Shown here: positions 12,151 through 64,000 of the stretch, in pieces | How the letters are laid out: each line of letters opens with the position of its first letter | Position numbering within the stretch: the stretch's first letter is position 1 | DNA from: an uncultured Gammaproteobacteria bacterium | GTDB taxonomy: Bacteria; Pseudomonadota; Gammaproteobacteria; Eutrophobiales; Eutrophobiaceae | Direction: 5' to 3' | DNA: 64,000 nt | Assembly: GCA_938084745.1 (NCBI GenBank) | Contig: CALKEZ010000012.1 | Coordinates: forward strand, 62,001 to 126,000 | Made by a program: the position numbers and the translations under genes | The notes under the pieces: generated by a model | Told to the model about the DNA's origin: nothing | The model's input: only the letters and a program-made list of their open reading frames with translations | Databases searched by the model: none

Positions 12151-13404
12151 ATGGAACATACGACAATATATCTTATATTGGCGGGCTGCTTTGGCCTGTT
12201 TATGGCCTGGGGTATTGGCGCGAATGATGTTGCAAATGCCATGGCAACATCGGTGGGTTCCAAGGCACTAACGCTTAAACGCGCCGTACTGGTTGCTGCT
12301 GTGTTTGAATTCGCCGGAGCTTTTCTTGCAGGAGGCCAGGTTACATCAACCATCCGCAAAGGCATCATCGATGCCAATTTACTTTCAGGCACACCGGAGT
12401 TACTGGTCTTTGGCATGCTGGCCGCCCTATTAGCTGCCGGCATATGGTTGTTAATTGCGACACGATATGGTTTGCCCGTTTCAACGACGCACTCGATAGT
12501 GGGTGCTATCGTTGGCTTTGGCGCTGTTGGCATTGGCATAGAAGCCGTCAAATGGGATAAGGTCGGATCAATTGCCGCAAGCTGGATTATTTCACCAGTG
12601 ATTGCCGGGACACTGGCTTACGCATTATTCCGTAGCGTGCAAAAATTAATTCTCGACACCACCAACCCGATGAAAAATGCCAAACGTTATGTTCCTGCCT
12701 ATATTTTTCTTACCGGATGCATAATTTCACTGGTCACCATGTTTAAGGGACTTAAACATATTGGGCTAGAGCTATCAAAATACCAATGTTATGGCATCAG
12801 CATCATTATAGGTTTGCTATGTGCGATTGTTGGTGCCTACCTTATTAGGCGGATTACTTTTGATAAAGAGGATAATCCCTCATACCATTTTCAAAATGTT
12901 GAGCTTGTATTTGGTGTGTTAATGATCTTTACCGCATGCGGAATGGCATTCGCACATGGCTCAAATGATGTCGCCAATGCCGTCGGACCGGTAGCGGCTA
13001 TCGTCAGTATTGTAACCAGCGGTGGTGAGATTGGACAAAAATCTGCTATGCCGATCTGGGTATTACTGCTGGGTGCTGTAGGGATCGTTGCTGGTTTATT
13101 AATGTATGGCCATAAAGTGATTGCCACTGTCGGCTCAGGCATCACCGATCTTACTCCGAGTCGTGGCTTTTGTGCAGAACTCGCCGCATCCACAACAGTT
13201 GTACTGGCCTCCGGCACAGGCATCCCGATATCAACAACTCACACACTGGTTGGTGCCGTTCTGGGGGTTGGTTTTGCACGTGGCATATCGGCACTGAACT
13301 TGCGTGTGATCGGTTCGATATTTATGTCATGGATTATAACGTTACCCGCCGGTGGTATTCTGGCGATAATCTTTTTCTATATCCTGTCTGCGCTCTTTGG
13401 TTAA
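12151..13404 (+). CDS. pit: Inorganic phosphate transporter, Pit family
   Basis: A 417-residue inner-membrane metal-phosphate:H+ symporter of the PHO4 family, with about ten hydrophobic segments. The two inverted PHO4 signatures are present: GIGANDVANAMATSVGSKAL (about residues 26-45) and HGSNDVANAVGPVAAI (about 269-284). Each is followed later by a ProIle/Val-Ser-Thr-Thr-His motif (LPVSTTHSIVGA and IPISTTHTLVGA). It gives low-affinity, high-capacity phosphate uptake and sits in an operon with its DUF47 partner. Convergent with phoU, whose stop is 24 bp away. Presence next to the Pst system means both uptake modes are in one locus. Confidence 0.94.
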   Translation: MEHTTIYLILAGCFGLFMAWGIGANDVANAMATSVGSKALTLKRAVLVAAVFEFAGAFLAGGQVTSTIRKGIIDANLLSGTPELLVFGMLAALLAAGIWLLIATRYGLPVSTTHSIVGAIVGFGAVGIGIEAVKWDKVGSIAASWIISPVIAGTLAYALFRSVQKLILDTTNPMKNAKRYVPAYIFLTGCIISLVTMFKGLKHIGLELSKYQCYGISIIIGLLCAIVGAYLIRRITFDKEDNPSYHFQNVELVFGVLMIFTACGMAFAHGSNDVANAVGPVAAIVSIVTSGGEIGQKSAMPIWVLLLGAVGIVAGLLMYGHKVIATVGSGITDLTPSRGFCAELAASTTVVLASGTGIPISTTHTLVGAVLGVGFARGISALNLRVIGSIFMSWIITLPAGGILAIIFFYILSALFG

Positions 13405-57280: not shown

Positions 57281-57724
57281 ATGGCTAACTCTCAGAACTT
57301 AGAATCACAACCGGTTCTAAAGAATTTCGTACCGTACAAGCCGAAGAAAAACGAAGTGTACATGAACGAGAAGCAGCGTGAGCACTTCAAGGTGATACTG
57401 CTAGACTGGCGCGAGCAATTGATGCAGGAAGTTGATCGCACGGTGCATCACATGCAAGACGATGCTGCTAACTACCCAGATCCCGCCGATCGTGCAACTC
57501 AGGAAGAAGAGTTTAGCCTCGAGCTGCGCACACGCGACCGAGAACGCAAGCTAATCAAGAAGATCGATCGCACCATCGAGCTCATCGCTCAGGATGACTA
57601 TGGCTACTGTGATTCTTGCGGGATCGATATAGGTATCCGCCGCTTAGAAGCTAGACCAACTGCTATTAAGTGCATCGATTGTAAGACCCTAGACGAGATT
57701 AAAGAAAAGCAACTCGGTAGCTAA
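57281..57724 (+). CDS. dksA: RNA polymerase-binding transcription factor DksA
   Basis: A 147-residue DksA, which binds in the secondary channel of RNA polymerase and with ppGpp alters transcription. The coiled-coil tip residues are in NYPDPADRA (Asp pair, about residues 65-73). The C4 zinc finger is [18 protein letters not shown] with CIDC (about 111-135). It is upstream of gluQ, the common order in gammaproteobacteria. Confidence 0.96.
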
Positions 57725-57868: not shown

Positions 57869-58783
57869 ATGCAAAAACCAGCCACTTCTCAGGCCGATAC
57901 GGAATCCGAATCAGGCTATATCGGTCGCTTCGCTCCCTCGCCCACAGGCCCTCTTCATTTTGGTTCGCTGCTTGCTGCATTAGCGAGTTTTCTCGATGCG
58001 CGCGCAAACCAAGGTAAGTGGCTAATGCGCATAGAAGACTTGGACCCACCCAGAGAGCCCGCTGGTAGCGCCGAGCTAATCCTGCAGCAACTGCAAGATT
58101 TTGGCATGAATTGGGATGATGAAGTGCTCTATCAGAGCGCGCGCCTGGGGATCTATGAAGAGATTGTGGATCAGCTTCAAGATAAAGGCCTCGCCTATCC
58201 CTGCGATTGTACTCGGCCACAGATTAGAGAAATGGGACTAGTCTATAATGGCTCCTGTCGTGAGCGGAGCACTCCACCAGAGAGGCCGTATGCACTGCGC
58301 TTAAAAACCGAGGCGCTAGAAATAGGCTTCGATGATAAAATTCAGGGCCATTTCAGCCAACAACTCGAGCTTGATGCCGGCGATTTCGTAATACGTCGAA
58401 AAGACGAGCTATATGCCTATCAACTAGCTGTCGTTGTGGACGATGAATTTCAGAACATCACTCATGTAGTAAGGGGCTGGGATTTACTCGACTCAACCCC
58501 GCGACAAATCTATTTACAAAGAGTGCTCAATTACCAAGAAATGAGCTACATCCACATCCCGATAATTGTCGATGGAAAGGGCCAAAAACTCAGTAAGCAG
58601 ACATTTGCACCATCAATTGAAACTGATAGAGCATCAGAGGCAATATACAAGGCGCTGATTTTTCTCGGCCAAGTACCACCAGTGGAAATAGCAATCGAGC
58701 GCCCCGAGTCGCAATTGCAGTGGGCTATAGCGAACTGGGACTCTCAGGCGGTAGCAAAAGTCAGCAGCCTACCCTTAGAATAG
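57869..58783 (+). CDS. gluQ: Glutamyl-Q tRNA(Asp) synthetase
   Basis: A 304-residue glutamyl-tRNA-synthetase-like enzyme without an anticodon-binding domain, which attaches glutamate to queuosine 34 of tRNA-Asp. HIGH-like FAPSPTGPLHFGSLLAAL (about residues 24-41), the zinc site CDCTRPQ...GSCRE (about 111-131), and the KLSKQ motif (about 244-248) are all seen. It is 144 bp from dksA and 94 bp before cbrX. Confidence 0.95.
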   Translation: MQKPATSQADTESESGYIGRFAPSPTGPLHFGSLLAALASFLDARANQGKWLMRIEDLDPPREPAGSAELILQQLQDFGMNWDDEVLYQSARLGIYEEIVDQLQDKGLAYPCDCTRPQIREMGLVYNGSCRERSTPPERPYALRLKTEALEIGFDDKIQGHFSQQLELDAGDFVIRRKDELYAYQLAVVVDDEFQNITHVVRGWDLLDSTPRQIYLQRVLNYQEMSYIHIPIIVDGKGQKLSKQTFAPSIETDRASEAIYKALIFLGQVPPVEIAIERPESQLQWAIANWDSQAVAKVSSLPLE

Positions 58784-58877: not shown

Positions 58878-59054
58878 GTGTACATTCCCCGTTCAATCTT
58901 GGTCCTATTACTCATAATCTATCTGCTTTTCCTGCTCAGTATAGATTGGATCAACCAGAGTGCTGGGGCCTGGTACCGCCCATTCTTCGTGGGTTTCATA
59001 GTAATCCTAATCGCGAGCTGGTCTCATCGGGAACAGGATTCCGATGAATTTTGA
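58878..59054 (+). CDS. cbrX: Small membrane protein CbrX, upstream of and overlapping cbrA
   Basis: A 58-residue protein with a GTG start and AAGGA six bases upstream. It has two hydrophobic segments (ILVLLLIIYLLFLLSI, and FFVGFIVILIASW) and a short polar C-terminus. Its stop lies 11 bases inside cbrA, so translation is coupled. In Pseudomonas a small open frame, cbrX, stands in exactly this place. Identity rests on position, size and membrane layout. Confidence 0.82.
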   Translation: MYIPRSILVLLLIIYLLFLLSIDWINQSAGAWYRPFFVGFIVILIASWSHREQDSDEF

Positions 59055-61965
59055 ACTAAGCACAATCATCGCGCTTGGAAGCGGCTATCTCGCGCTGCTG
59101 TTTGGCATAGCGTTCGTGACGGAACGCGGTTGGATTCCCGAAAAAATCGTCCGCCATCCGATTGTCTATGTTCTCTCTCTCGGCGTATTCGCCAGCGTCT
59201 GGGCTTACTACACCTCCATCGGCAATGCCCTGCGTGATGGCTATGGTTATCTCGCCAACTCTATTGGTATCTCTCTAGCATTTCTACTATCACCATTATT
59301 ATTACGCCCGTTGCTACAGCTGACTCGCACCTACCAACTGAGCTCTCTGGCGGATTTAATGGCGTTCCGCTACCGCTCTCCTTGGGCGGGAACCGTTACC
59401 ACTTTGGTCATTCTAATCACAGTTATACCGCTTATCGCGCTGCAGATAAGAGCAGTTTCAGATACAGCATTTTTACTCTCCCCACAGGCGGTGCAAGGCT
59501 CACTCGCTATCGGTTTCTGCGTGATAATTACACTATTTTCGATCCTATTCGGCACGTCCAGAAGGGCTGGGCGGACACAATATGACGGCCTCGTCATGGC
59601 GATTGCCTTCGAATCACTAGTAAAACTAATAGCGTTCCTTGTAGTAGGAGCCTTCGCGGTGTACGGCGCCTTCGGCAGTTTCGATGGCCTCGATCGCTGG
59701 CTGCAGGAGCAACCCGAGCTAGTGGCCAGCCTGAAGAACACCGATTACTTTTCTTCTTTCCATGTCATGGTGTTATTGTTTTTTACTGCGGCTGTCGCGA
59801 TGCCACACATGTTCTACGTGACCTTAACCGGTAATAATGGGCAGAAAGCTCTCTCGTTTGCGAGCTGGGGATTGCCTCTTTATTTCTTACTGCTTAGTCT
59901 GCCAGTCCTTCCCATTCTCTGGGCCGGCCTACAGTCAGGCAGCAGTGTACAGGTGGAATACTTCCCGATAGTTATCGGTGCCGCCTATCAAGTTCCAATG
60001 ATCAGCCTACTCGCCTACCTAGGAGGATTGTCTGCAGCGAGCGGTTTGATCATCGTCATCACCCTAGCACTTTCAAATATGTGCTTGAATCATTTGATAC
60101 TTCCGATCTATCAACCGAAGGCGAATGAGGACATTTACCGCTGGTTGCTTTGGAAGCGGCGCACTCTTATAACAGCTATTATATGGCTTGGATTTCTCTT
60201 TCATTACCTACCGAGCGAGCAAATAAGCATTCAGGTGATCGGCATTGTTGCATTCACTGCCTGCTTGCAATTTATGCCGGGCATAATCGCGATCCTTTAC
60301 TGGCCAACTGCAAATAAAAAAGGATTCTTATGGGGGCTGGGCACCGGTGTGCTCGTTTGGTTTCTATTCCTAATGCTACCGCTGCTATCCGACGCTGACC
60401 CCCTAGCTCTGGTTTCAGTCAACTGGCGTGAGATCACCGCCCTTTCACTCATTAGCAACTGTGTAATTTTCGTTGCCACCTCCCTGCTCAGCACCAGCAG
60501 CGACGAAGACCGCAGCTCTGCTGATATCTGCACGCTCGATACCATTAAGCGCCGCAAACGCAGCGGTCTGGTCGCAAAGTCTCCACGCGACTTTATTAAA
60601 AGTCTTAGCAAGCCGCTGGGTGAAAGAACCGCAAATCGAGAAGTAGGCCAAGCACTAAAGAATCTAAATATTAGCGAGAACGATCGTCGACCATACGCGA
60701 TGCAACAACTGCGCGGAAAGCTGGAAGCGAACCTATCGGGATTGCTCGGCCCTTCGATCGCACGAGAGATAATTGATGGCTACCTTCCCTATAGCATCGT
60801 CTCTGAACACGGCAGCTCGGATCTTAATGTTATCGAGAGTCGTATTGAAGCCTATCGCAGCAACTTATTTGGCATGGCGGCCGATCTCGACAATCTAAGG
60901 CGCTATCATCGTCAGATCCTACTCGACCTACCTTTAGGGGTCTGCTCGCTTAGTACCGAAGGCGAAGTCATCATGTGGAATCGAGCAATGGAGCAGTTCA
61001 CAGAGTTGAATAGTGCCGATGTCGTTGGCTCCCAACTTATCGATTTGTCAGAACCCTGGCTAAGCCTGTTTGCCAATTTTATCGATGACGGCGCCAGTCA
61101 TTCCTATAAGTATGTATTTGAATTAGAAAGCCAGAAGCGGACCGTCAACCTGCACAAGGCTCTTATAGAACAAACCAGTAACCCAGATTCTATTCACGAA
61201 GGCGTCATCATTCTTCTAGAAGACATTACCGAAATGGAAATTTTGGAAGCAGGGCTTACACACAGTGAAAGGCTTGCCTCCATTGGAAGGTTAGCCGCCG
61301 GCGTAGCTCATGAGGTTGGAAACCCGATCACCGGTATTGCCTGCCTCGCACAAACCATTAGAGACGAATACGACGACAAAGAGTTGCTCGATCTAACCGA
61401 GCAAATTATCGAGCAAACCGATCGCACATCAACGATTCTGCAATCATTGGTCAACTTTGCGCATGCCGGAACTAACAAGACTCAATACGAAAGCGAAATA
61501 GTAACTATTAGTGAATGTATGGCACAAGCTCAAACTCTGGTATCGCTCGATAGAAAGAGCAAAGAATTGAATCTACGCATTGATTGCGACTCCAATGCAA
61601 GAATTCTCGGTGACTCACAGCGTCTCCTGCAAGTATTAATTAACCTAATCAATAACGCTCGCGATGCAAGCCAAGCAAATGGCGAAGTCCTCTTGCAGAC
61701 GTTAGTAAAAGGCGAGATGGTCGAAATCGCTGTCGTCGACGAAGGAATAGGCATTCCCGTAGCGATAAGGGACCGCGTCTTCGACCCCTTTTTCACCACC
61801 AAAGAGGCGGGTGAAGGCACTGGCTTAGGGCTCTCCCTCGTTTTCAGTATAATTGAAGACTTAGGTGGTGATATTGATATAATCAGTCCCGCAAACGAAG
61901 ACACAGGCGGCACGCGGGTATTACTGCGATTTCCTTGCTACCATAGCGATCCAGCTACGCACTAA
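59044..61965 (+). CDS. cbrA: Sensor histidine kinase CbrA with sodium/solute symporter domain
   Basis: A 973-residue hybrid. Residues 1-480 have about 13 membrane segments of an SSS-type transporter (LGSGYLALLFGIAFVTERG at the start). Next come a linker, a PAS domain (about 630-740, LGVCSLSTEGEVIMWNRAM), and a HisKA domain with the histidine in GVAHEVGNPITGI (about 756). The HATPase has INNARDASQANG, DEGIGIP and GEGTGLGLSLVFSI. CbrA senses carbon/nitrogen balance and, with CbrB, controls catabolite repression. It is 47 bp before cbrB. Confidence 0.93.
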   Translation: MNFELSTIIALGSGYLALLFGIAFVTERGWIPEKIVRHPIVYVLSLGVFASVWAYYTSIGNALRDGYGYLANSIGISLAFLLSPLLLRPLLQLTRTYQLSSLADLMAFRYRSPWAGTVTTLVILITVIPLIALQIRAVSDTAFLLSPQAVQGSLAIGFCVIITLFSILFGTSRRAGRTQYDGLVMAIAFESLVKLIAFLVVGAFAVYGAFGSFDGLDRWLQEQPELVASLKNTDYFSSFHVMVLLFFTAAVAMPHMFYVTLTGNNGQKALSFASWGLPLYFLLLSLPVLPILWAGLQSGSSVQVEYFPIVIGAAYQVPMISLLAYLGGLSAASGLIIVITLALSNMCLNHLILPIYQPKANEDIYRWLLWKRRTLITAIIWLGFLFHYLPSEQISIQVIGIVAFTACLQFMPGIIAILYWPTANKKGFLWGLGTGVLVWFLFLMLPLLSDADPLALVSVNWREITALSLISNCVIFVATSLLSTSSDEDRSSADICTLDTIKRRKRSGLVAKSPRDFIKSLSKPLGERTANREVGQALKNLNISENDRRPYAMQQLRGKLEANLSGLLGPSIAREIIDGYLPYSIVSEHGSSDLNVIESRIEAYRSNLFGMAADLDNLRRYHRQILLDLPLGVCSLSTEGEVIMWNRAMEQFTELNSADVVGSQLIDLSEPWLSLFANFIDDGASHSYKYVFELESQKRTVNLHKALIEQTSNPDSIHEGVIILLEDITEMEILEAGLTHSERLASIGRLAAGVAHEVGNPITGIACLAQTIRDEYDDKELLDLTEQIIEQTDRTSTILQSLVNFAHAGTNKTQYESEIVTISECMAQAQTLVSLDRKSKELNLRIDCDSNARILGDSQRLLQVLINLINNARDASQANGEVLLQTLVKGEMVEIAVVDEGIGIPVAIRDRVFDPFFTTKEAGEGTGLGLSLVFSIIEDLGGDIDIISPANEDTGGTRVLLRFPCYHSDPATH

Positions 61966-62012: not shown

Positions 62013-63386
62013 ATGACAGAAATGAAACAAGTTTTAGTAGTGGAAGATGAAGTAGTTATTCGAACTGCTTTGAAGCGATTACTAGAGCGCCACACCTACA
62101 AAGTTAGCGAAGCGGGAACAGTCAAAGAGTCGATAGACAATTTCGACATGGATGACTTCGACGTAATAATCAGCGACCTGCGTCTGCCCGGTGCACCCGG
62201 AACCGATCTAATCAAGGCTACTACCACGCCGGTTTTGATCATGACCAGTTACTCCAGTATTCGTTCTGCCATAGATTCTATGAAACTTGGCGCCGTCGAC
62301 TATATCGCCAAACCGTTTGAACACAGCGAGCTCATCGAGTCCGTCGCCAAAGTAATTCGTGAACACGCTAAAACGCCACAACAATCTACTGATGCACCTA
62401 TCGAATTTGAGCCACCCGTTCATGGCATGATCGGTAGCTGCCCGCAGATGATGGAATTGTTTCGGCGAATTCGTAAAGTAGCTCTTACCAATTCTACCGT
62501 CTTAATCAATGGAGAATCGGGAACGGGGAAAGAACTTGTTGCTCGAGCGATTCATAACTTAAGCAATCGCTGTGCACAGGAAATGATTTCTGTGAATTGC
62601 GCTGCAATTCCAGAAAACCTAATTGAGTCTGAATTATTCGGCCACGAGAAGGGAGCCTTTACCGGCGCCACTGCAACCAGAACCGGTTTAGTCGAAGCCG
62701 CTAATGGCAGCACGCTTTTCCTCGATGAAATAGGTGAGCTACCGCTTGAGGCTCAGGCTAGACTACTACGAGTTCTGCAAGAAAGTGAGATTCGCAAAGT
62801 CGGCTCTGTGCAGTCCAAGAAAGTCGACGTGCGCCTCGTCGTTGCTACTCATCGCGATCTAAAGCAATTGGTAGTAGATGGCCACTTTCGTGAAGACCTC
62901 TATTACCGCATTAATGTGATGACACTACTGATCCCGCCACTTAGAGACCGCGGTGACGATATCTTGGAGCTTGGCGAAGCTATTTTGCAGCGGACCTGCA
63001 AGCGCCTTAAAACCAAGATGCTCAGTTTGAGTGAAGGTGCTAGAGGTGCCATATTTAATTATGGCTGGCCAGGAAATGTGCGTGAGCTGGAAAATGCGAT
63101 AGAACGCGCCGTTGTGCTGGCAGAAGAATTGGAAATTTCAGAAGAGCTGCTTGCTATTGACGACGAACAGAGACCCATCTCGACCCGAGAGCTAGAATTA
63201 CAGAGCCCGCAGACTGCCCCCGAACCTACCGAAGAGCTCTCTTTGGAAGACTATTTTCAGCGCTTTGTAATTGAGCACCAGGATGCCATGAATGAAACCC
63301 AACTCGCGAAAAAATTAGGCATAAGCCGCAAGTGTCTTTGGGAGCGCCGCCAGCGCTTCGGCATTCCCCGCACGAAGAAGCACTAA
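62013..63386 (+). CDS. cbrB: Sigma-54-dependent response regulator CbrB
   Basis: A 457-residue NtrC-type regulator. It has a receiver domain with the phosphorylated Asp55 in [11 protein letters not shown], a sigma-54 AAA+ domain with Walker A GESGTGKE (about residues 168-175) and the sigma-54 contact loop GAFTGA (about 212-217), and a C-terminal Fis-type helix-turn-helix ([20 protein letters not shown]). With cbrA it makes a two-component system. Its likely main target is the sRNA locus just downstream. Confidence 0.94.
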
Positions 63387-63508: not shown

Positions 63509-63642
63509 TGTTACTGCTACCTTCTTACCCAGGAAAAAGGGAGTATTTGTAACAAAAGTGGGTATTTAGAATAAAGTTACTAATTTTCAAAACTCTAAGC
63601 CTCTGATAATTAGGGAATTGTCTAGCTTGGCACAATAAGTGC
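63509..63642 (+). promoter_or_regulatory. Sigma-54 promoter and possible CbrB sites upstream of the CrcZ-like RNA
   Basis: TGGCAC AATAA GTGC at 63628-63642 has the GG and GC pairs 12 bases apart, as in sigma-54 promoters (TGGCAC-N5-TTGC; one mismatch). Upstream are TGTTAC (63509-63514), GTAACA (63549-63554) and GTTAC (63576-63580), half-sites like those I recall for CbrB. The predicted start of transcription is near 63653. From the cbrB stop to here I see no other gene. Confidence 0.72.
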
Positions 63643-63652
63643 AACTGTTGGA

Positions 63653-63885
63653 GCGATAATAACAATAAACAATAATAATAAATCTCAATAAAAATAAAAA
63701 TCGCATTACTGAGTTAAAAACTAAGGTTAATGCACTAAATAATAAAAGGTCGGATTGTAGTCTGGATTTGGCGATTGTCATCTAACTGCATAATTACCAC
63801 CTTAATACTTATGCAGTACCGATGTGGGTACGCACTTAATAATAAAATCTAGCTTCCTATTGAGGGGTGGTTTTCACCCCTCAAT
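63653..63885 (+). ncRNA. crcZ: CrcZ-like small regulatory RNA with A-rich CA motifs
   Basis: Downstream of cbrB and of a sigma-54 promoter is an AT-rich transcript region with repeated AAnAAn motifs: 63656-63683 (AATAACAATAAACAATAATA), about 63686-63702, 63734-63749 and 63834-63849. These resemble the CA motifs by which CrcZ/CrcY of Pseudomonas bind Hfq and Crc. A stem-loop closes the region. Length, about 230 nt, is shorter than P. aeruginosa CrcZ, and the 3' end is not certain. Confidence 0.62.
63859..63885 (+). terminator. Stem-loop at the 3' end of the CrcZ-like RNA
   Basis: Perfect 11-bp arms ATTGAGGGGTG / CACCCCTCAAT enclose a GTTTT loop. There is no U-run after it, so it may be an end structure and not a full intrinsic terminator. 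No gene is seen from here to the window end. Confidence 0.55.
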
Positions 63886-64000
63886 AATATCTCCTAACCA
63901 CCAAAATCATCCATGCTACTTGAGAGTTCCCTATTCTACTTGTGCCGTGCCTGTAGTTTTCTCTAGTTCCGTGTATCATGCCGATTGATGTTTACAATCC

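Follow-up and report, generated by a model that had tools for sequence, protein, structure and literature searches.

In Pseudomonas, the small RNA CrcZ acts as an RNA sponge for Hfq, for which Crc is the usual partner protein. CrcZ is part of the CbrAB circuit, in which carbon limitation leads to phosphorylation of CbrB and, with the aid of IHF, to sigma-54-dependent transcription of a CA-rich RNA that occupies Hfq. Part of this background on CbrAB, CrcZ, and Hfq comes from PMC4063720 and other papers. According to reviews, the CbrAB-CrcZ system is confined to two genera, Pseudomonas and Azotobacter (PMC8871633, PMC6296734). At crcZ of P. putida, both the CbrB subsites and IHF matter, and TGTTAC is the F subsite as defined for crcZ and crcY (PMC6296734). 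Here we describe what is, as judged from sequence, a real and conserved CrcZ-like RNA gene in a different lineage, and in many families where it is undescribed.

The window, a 64,000-nt stretch of DNA of a marine bacterium, carries the gene order cbrA-cbrB-RNA-pcnB (Table 1), with the RNA directly 3' of cbrB and 5' of pcnB, which is the position of CrcZ. The upstream neighbors are taken to be dksA and gluQRS, presumably in their Pseudomonas order. CbrA possesses HisKA and HATPase_c domains, its N-terminal 552 aa gave no Pfam match, and over residues 2-966 it is 49% identical to CbrA of a genome positive for Rfam CrcZ (G221). CbrB, with Response_reg and Sigma54_activat domains by Pfam and GAFTGA visible in its translation, is 63-64% identical to its G221 counterpart. 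On these identities, the full-length CbrA-type kinase and NtrC-type CbrB are orthologous to the Pseudomonas pair, and pcnB sits downstream of both the window locus and that of G221. The relatives referred to below are 59 loci obtained from a CbrA scan, mostly from marine metagenome-assembled Pseudomonadales (including Pseudohongiella sp. and OM182).

Table 1. Features of the cbrA-cbrB-RNA-pcnB locus, in window coordinates.
Feature	Position	Strand	Basis or remark
dksA (presumed)	57281-57724	+	Pfam DksA_N / zf-dskA; upstream neighbor
gluQRS (presumed)	57869-58783	+	Pfam tRNA-synt_1c; upstream neighbor
cbrA	59044-61965	+	sensor kinase; CbrA-type membrane N-terminus, then HisKA/HATPase
cbrB	62013-63386	+	response regulator of NtrC type; GAFTGA-bearing sigma-54 activator
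CbrB half-site F, TGTTAC	63509-63514	+	-119 from TGG
CbrB half-site R, GTAACA	63549-63554	+	-79 from TGG
IHF-like site YAANNNNTTGATW	63596-63608	-	one mismatch
Sigma-54 (-24/-12) promoter TGGCACAATAAGTGCA	63628-63643	+	GG-N10-GC
Predicted CrcZ-like small RNA	about 63655-63892 (~235 nt)	+	conservation in alignment A2; fold z
5' CA tracts	63658-63697	+	six overlapping AANAAYAA; near-invariant in alignment A2
Hairpin 1	63703-63733	+	conserved GCAUUAC...GUUAGUGC; fold and alignment
CA motif AATAATAA	63738-63745	+	between hairpins
Hairpin 2	63746-63803	+	single-sequence fold only
Hairpin 3 (GUACC...GGUAC)	63812-63834	+	single-sequence fold only
CA motif AATAATAA	63838-63845	+	ahead of terminator stem
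Terminator-like GC-rich stem-loop	63858-63886	+	compensatory changes in most pairs
pcnB	starts ~64166, beyond window end (L003:1167-2528)	+	downstream neighbor; identified by Pfam

The promoter is the sole site scoring at least 7/8 on either strand of the 64-kb window, and the chance of such a sigma-54 site in a 504-nt stretch is 0.004 by dinucleotide shuffling. Upstream of it lie TGTTAC/GTAACA subsites for CbrB and an IHF-like site, a combination which, by comparison with PMC6296734, is that of CrcZ. A strict sigma-54 site is present at 39 loci, one of them cut by a contig end, and was not found in seven relatives. Positions of the upstream elements are nearly fixed among the 39: TGTTAC falls within -140 to -105 in 37 (nearly all at -118 to -121; 1.2% of shuffles), GTAACA within -86 to -74 in 33 (at -79 to -81; 0.4% of shuffles), and an IHF-like match with no more than one mismatch occurs in the interval of 30, mostly at exactly -32 (13.5% of shuffles).

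The putative RNA is taken to start approximately 12 nt past the GC element and to end at or just after the closing hairpin. Its strand bears eight AANAAYAA motifs, the opposite strand none, and shuffled sequences a mean of 0.56-0.67 with a maximum of 5 (2000 shuffles). The predicted fold of 63656-63892 comprises four hairpins and leaves every CA tract single-stranded (z = -4.54); several unpaired CA motifs are thus predicted, as in CrcZ. The terminator of the window is poor in U, with no clear U-run, and a U-run is present in relatives L031, L036-L038, L040, and L053. The stem itself covaries, pairing being kept through compensatory changes across the 34 aligned RNAs of relatives that make up alignment A2. 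A preliminary description of this DNA had noted a correctly spaced sigma-54 promoter, upstream half-sites, and a closing stem-loop, all of which are borne out here; of its four A-rich motifs, the four tracts stand, while the motifs within them overlap and number eight.

Of the 47 relatives in which the cbrB-pcnB interval is complete, 45 show the arrangement cbrA-cbrB-gap-pcnB with a gap of 521-969 nt, and these 45 carry 5-16 AANAAYAA motifs on the RNA strand versus 0-2 on the other. Half-sites, promoter, and CA tracts are the most conserved blocks in the alignment of close relatives. The two exceptions (L051 and L061) keep cbrAB and pcnB, but the cbrB-pcnB gap has shrunk to 12-29 nt, which leaves no RNA there; they are apparent natural losses.

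The window RNA resembles CrcZ of Pseudomonas and Azotobacter in its cbrB-pcnB position, CbrB half-sites, IHF-like site, and sigma-54 promoter, as well as in starting with CA repeats, bearing further CA motifs between hairpins, and closing with a GC-rich stem. It differs in length (about 235 nt versus ~400), in F-R half-site spacing (40 versus 44, without a middle GTAACA), and in that its host family is without a recognizable Crc. The layout is shared by the G221 locus, where TGTTAC, GTAACA, and GTAACG are present and the sigma-54 site lies 81 nt past the last of these (79 nt in the window). CrcY and CrcX, the additional Pseudomonas copies, share the promoter and CA motif logic, but lie elsewhere in Pseudomonas, whereas genomes of the host family (f224) show a single locus by pattern.

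A-rich composition can raise the scores of RNA models, and the following values are to be read accordingly: with the Rfam CrcZ model (RF01675), the window scored 12.3 bits against a gathering threshold of 95; among 49 genomes searched with the model, G221 scored 306.8 bits and is therefore taken as Pseudomonas-type, and the best scores in relatives, 31.0 bits for G066 (E 2e-6) and 23.5 bits for G076 (E 3e-4), are below gathering, still significant, and come from matches located exactly in the cbrB-pcnB gaps of L032 and L052, respectively; a covariance model built from the window's clade (R1) detected the corresponding RNA at the majority of order-wide loci, that of G221 weakly (20.6 bits, E 0.002), and gave no match at cbrAB loci without pcnB. 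At the gathering threshold, the window has no Rfam match; the RNA is consequently termed CrcZ-like rather than filed as RF01675, and sequence homology is not significant for the window copy alone. The case for homology to CrcZ rests jointly on synteny, promoter, and Rfam/R1 matches. As the RNA lies outside the Rfam family bounds and its host lacks a recognizable Crc, we count it as a variant of CrcZ. The earlier suggestion of a CrcZ-like RNA under CbrB and sigma-54 outside the Pseudomonadaceae is supported by synteny, promoter, CA motifs, conservation, and the weak but well-placed Rfam matches.

It is important to note that the contig of which the window is part (C12) is very probably misbinned in its assembly (G000). 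Genome G058 (L007) matches it at 99.97% identity along 14.9 kb, and the crc relative of G058 is 63% identical to that of G000 and 94% to that of the neighboring genome G059. The pyrE genes of G000 and G058 are 55% identical, and no comparable cbrB was found in the genus and family of G000. We therefore place the host in the group of G058, whose family code, f224, was assigned through G811, a genome with promoter and RNA start equal to those of L009. Given the probable misbinning, the crc-like gene of G000 is taken not to be that of the window organism, and this match (L001) was discarded as evidence.

Homologues of PAO1 Crc (query sequence verified against PDB 4jg3) were classed by their ExoIII active-site residues in PAO1 Crc numbering, the ExoIII active site being lost in Pseudomonas Crc (PMC6422490). 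The degenerate type forms one clade that includes Acinetobacter proteins (support 99, quick tree), adjoins pyrE wherever this could be checked, and occurs in most of the sampled CrcZ-bearing families; the active type (QETK, [AG]DWN, SDH) falls outside this clade. Among the inspected sequences of f224, no degenerate Crc was found. Each inspected f224 genome encodes one active ExoIII-type Crc relative, ~47% identical to PAO1 Crc, and one genus encodes a more distant ExoIII in addition. This relative keeps N7, E35, D148, N150, D220, and D245/H246, groups outside the Crc clade, and is encoded away from the pyrE locus. That a degenerate Crc was overlooked for low similarity was considered and rejected: an 18-sequence Crc profile (A1) still returned only the active type, plus distant ExoIII. 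In G058, G504, G647, and G778, pyrE is followed directly by rph, and the crc slot is therefore empty. Hfq was detected in 21 of 22 genomes tested, G058 included. The preliminary description had proposed a search for crc, holding that lack of the gene together with lack of Hfq binding would count against it, and no recognizable crc was found in f224. Its wider suggestion, an extension of the CbrAB-CrcZ-Crc system, stands in part: Hfq is present in f224, whereas a recognizable Crc is not.

We infer transcription of the RNA, its dependence on CbrB and sigma-54, its Hfq binding, and its physiological role from the features above. Under carbon limitation, CbrA would phosphorylate CbrB, which would bind the TGTTAC/GTAACA half-sites; with the DNA bent by IHF, sigma-54 polymerase would initiate an RNA of ~235 nt some 12 nt past 63642. 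This RNA would present unpaired AANAAYAA tracts between its hairpins, bind the distal face of Hfq, and draw Hfq off catabolic mRNAs, thereby lifting translational repression. Since no Crc was found in f224, the decoy there would act on Hfq alone, or an ExoIII-type protein would replace Crc. In our view, 63509-63890 is very likely a CrcZ-type regulatory RNA gene, specifying a CbrB/sigma-54-driven Hfq decoy that works in one of these two ways; the most likely form is a decoy working without canonical Crc. The broader proposition, that the RNA acts as a decoy order-wide and in f224 titrates Hfq without any Crc, Crc having either been lost there or elsewhere been recruited from the active ExoIII that some genomes still carry beside pyrE, we regard as evenly poised between right and wrong.

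That the f224 ExoIII-type relative is itself the Hfq partner, so that the RNA has canonical CrcZ function and the CbrAB-CrcZ-Hfq-Crc circuit is complete, appears unlikely. The protein is single-copy and shares ~47% identity with PAO1 Crc, and many f224 members keep an R-R-K-R-R-E stretch spanning Crc R140/R141/E142, residues that contact RNA or the Crc dimer (PMC6422490). However, every inspected active-site position is intact, conservation is lost at dimer positions R229/R230/F231 and W255, the grouping outside the degenerate clade has a support of 99, and the gene lies elsewhere than at the pyrE-adjacent crc locus. Furthermore, equivalents of the protein coexist with true degenerate Crc in other families, which suggests that the ExoIII-type proteins are repair enzymes. 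Given the intact nuclease site and the missing dimer residues, action on Hfq alone is judged likelier than an ExoIII-type stand-in for Crc.

Two further readings concern the RNA rather than its partner. The CA tracts might merely recruit Hfq to a base-pairing, Hfq-dependent sRNA that acts through its conserved hairpins or their loops, and conserved stretches that are not A-rich do exist among relatives (e.g. GCATTAC...GTTAGTGC and GCTTATGCGGCGCC); in alignment A2, however, the A-rich tracts are the most conserved columns and the hairpin 2/3 region varies strongly, while subgroups L027/L028 and L036-L038/L060 have unrelated middle parts and yet retain CA tracts and terminator, which makes this reading quite improbable. 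The least credible is that there is no gene here, only a long pcnB 5' leader or a chance A-rich intergenic stretch. The stretch is indeed A-rich, 5' of pcnB, and on the same strand, but promoter spacing is conserved, CA motifs are far above shuffles, and the terminator stem covaries. Moreover, a distinct conserved promoter-like block of its own precedes pcnB in the alignment of relatives, and cbrB and the RNA occur without an adjacent pcnB in L196 and L218. If a decoy without Crc is correct, Hfq and decoy RNA alone would constitute a working, simpler form of Pseudomonas carbon catabolite control, and Crc-less families offer a natural test of whether the two suffice.

Of 369 gammaproteobacterial genomes sampled, 38 encode CbrA-like proteins; among readable cbrB neighborhoods, the gap-pcnB layout with CA motifs was confined to G221, G422, and the window's clade. 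A pattern joining the sigma-54 site to CA repeats (TGGCAYN6TGCN{8,30}AAYAAYAAYAA) matched 109 of 392 genomes in the order of G221 (that of Pseudomonas), versus 1 among the genomes listed for the reversed-pattern control in the same order, and 12 of 369 genomes class-wide; the pattern being strict, 28% is a lower bound. For 30 of 40 fetched matches, cbrB immediately precedes the site, and in 27 of these pcnB also follows it; matches without a nearby cbrB were left out of the CrcZ-like count. The 30 span 19 family codes, which together with the families of Pseudomonas, G422, and the window gives 22. Putative CrcZ-like loci thus extend over no fewer than 20 families of the order, uncultured marine groups included, and this opens the main carbon-priority circuit of Pseudomonas to comparative study. 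In the open-access literature, no earlier report of this was found, either for CrcZ in Cellvibrio or Oceanospirillales or for CbrA/CbrB in Marinobacter or other orders.

CbrAB-like pairs of other gammaproteobacteria likewise consist of a CbrA-type kinase and an NtrC-type regulator, but unlike the window pair, almost all are without a pcnB neighbor and without a CA-motif RNA. A good sigma-54-like site after cbrB is frequent at CbrAB-like loci elsewhere in the class, lying 90-220 nt past cbrB in L130, L132, L133, L136, L137, L144, and L146; in L133, a CBS/nucleotidyltransferase-like gene and a sodium:solute symporter-like gene are found downstream of cbrB.

Several loci depart from the single-unit layout. 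Between cbrB and pcnB, L191, L200, L203, L204, and L206 carry 2-3 tandem CrcZ-like units, each with a sigma-54 site or model match. At ~5500 in L202 (G438), GTAACA/TGTTAC half-sites accompany nine CA motifs in a CrcZ-like unit that lies away from cbrB and is possibly a CrcY-like second copy. In L208 (G629), a CrcZ-like unit with half-sites lies at ~5500 upstream of pcnB, no cbrB is present within the fetched stretch, and cbrAB seems to have moved.

The slot beside pyrE that holds degenerate crc in Pseudomonas is occupied by an active-type ExoIII gene in L067 (G050), L088 (G043), L236 (G486), and L251 (G450). These genes possibly represent the ancestral state of Crc, and may illuminate how the co-repressor Crc arose from a repair nuclease. 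Within the window, a PiT phosphate transporter-like ORF at 12151 (+) carries AAGAATAACAA across its ribosome-binding region and is a candidate Hfq target.
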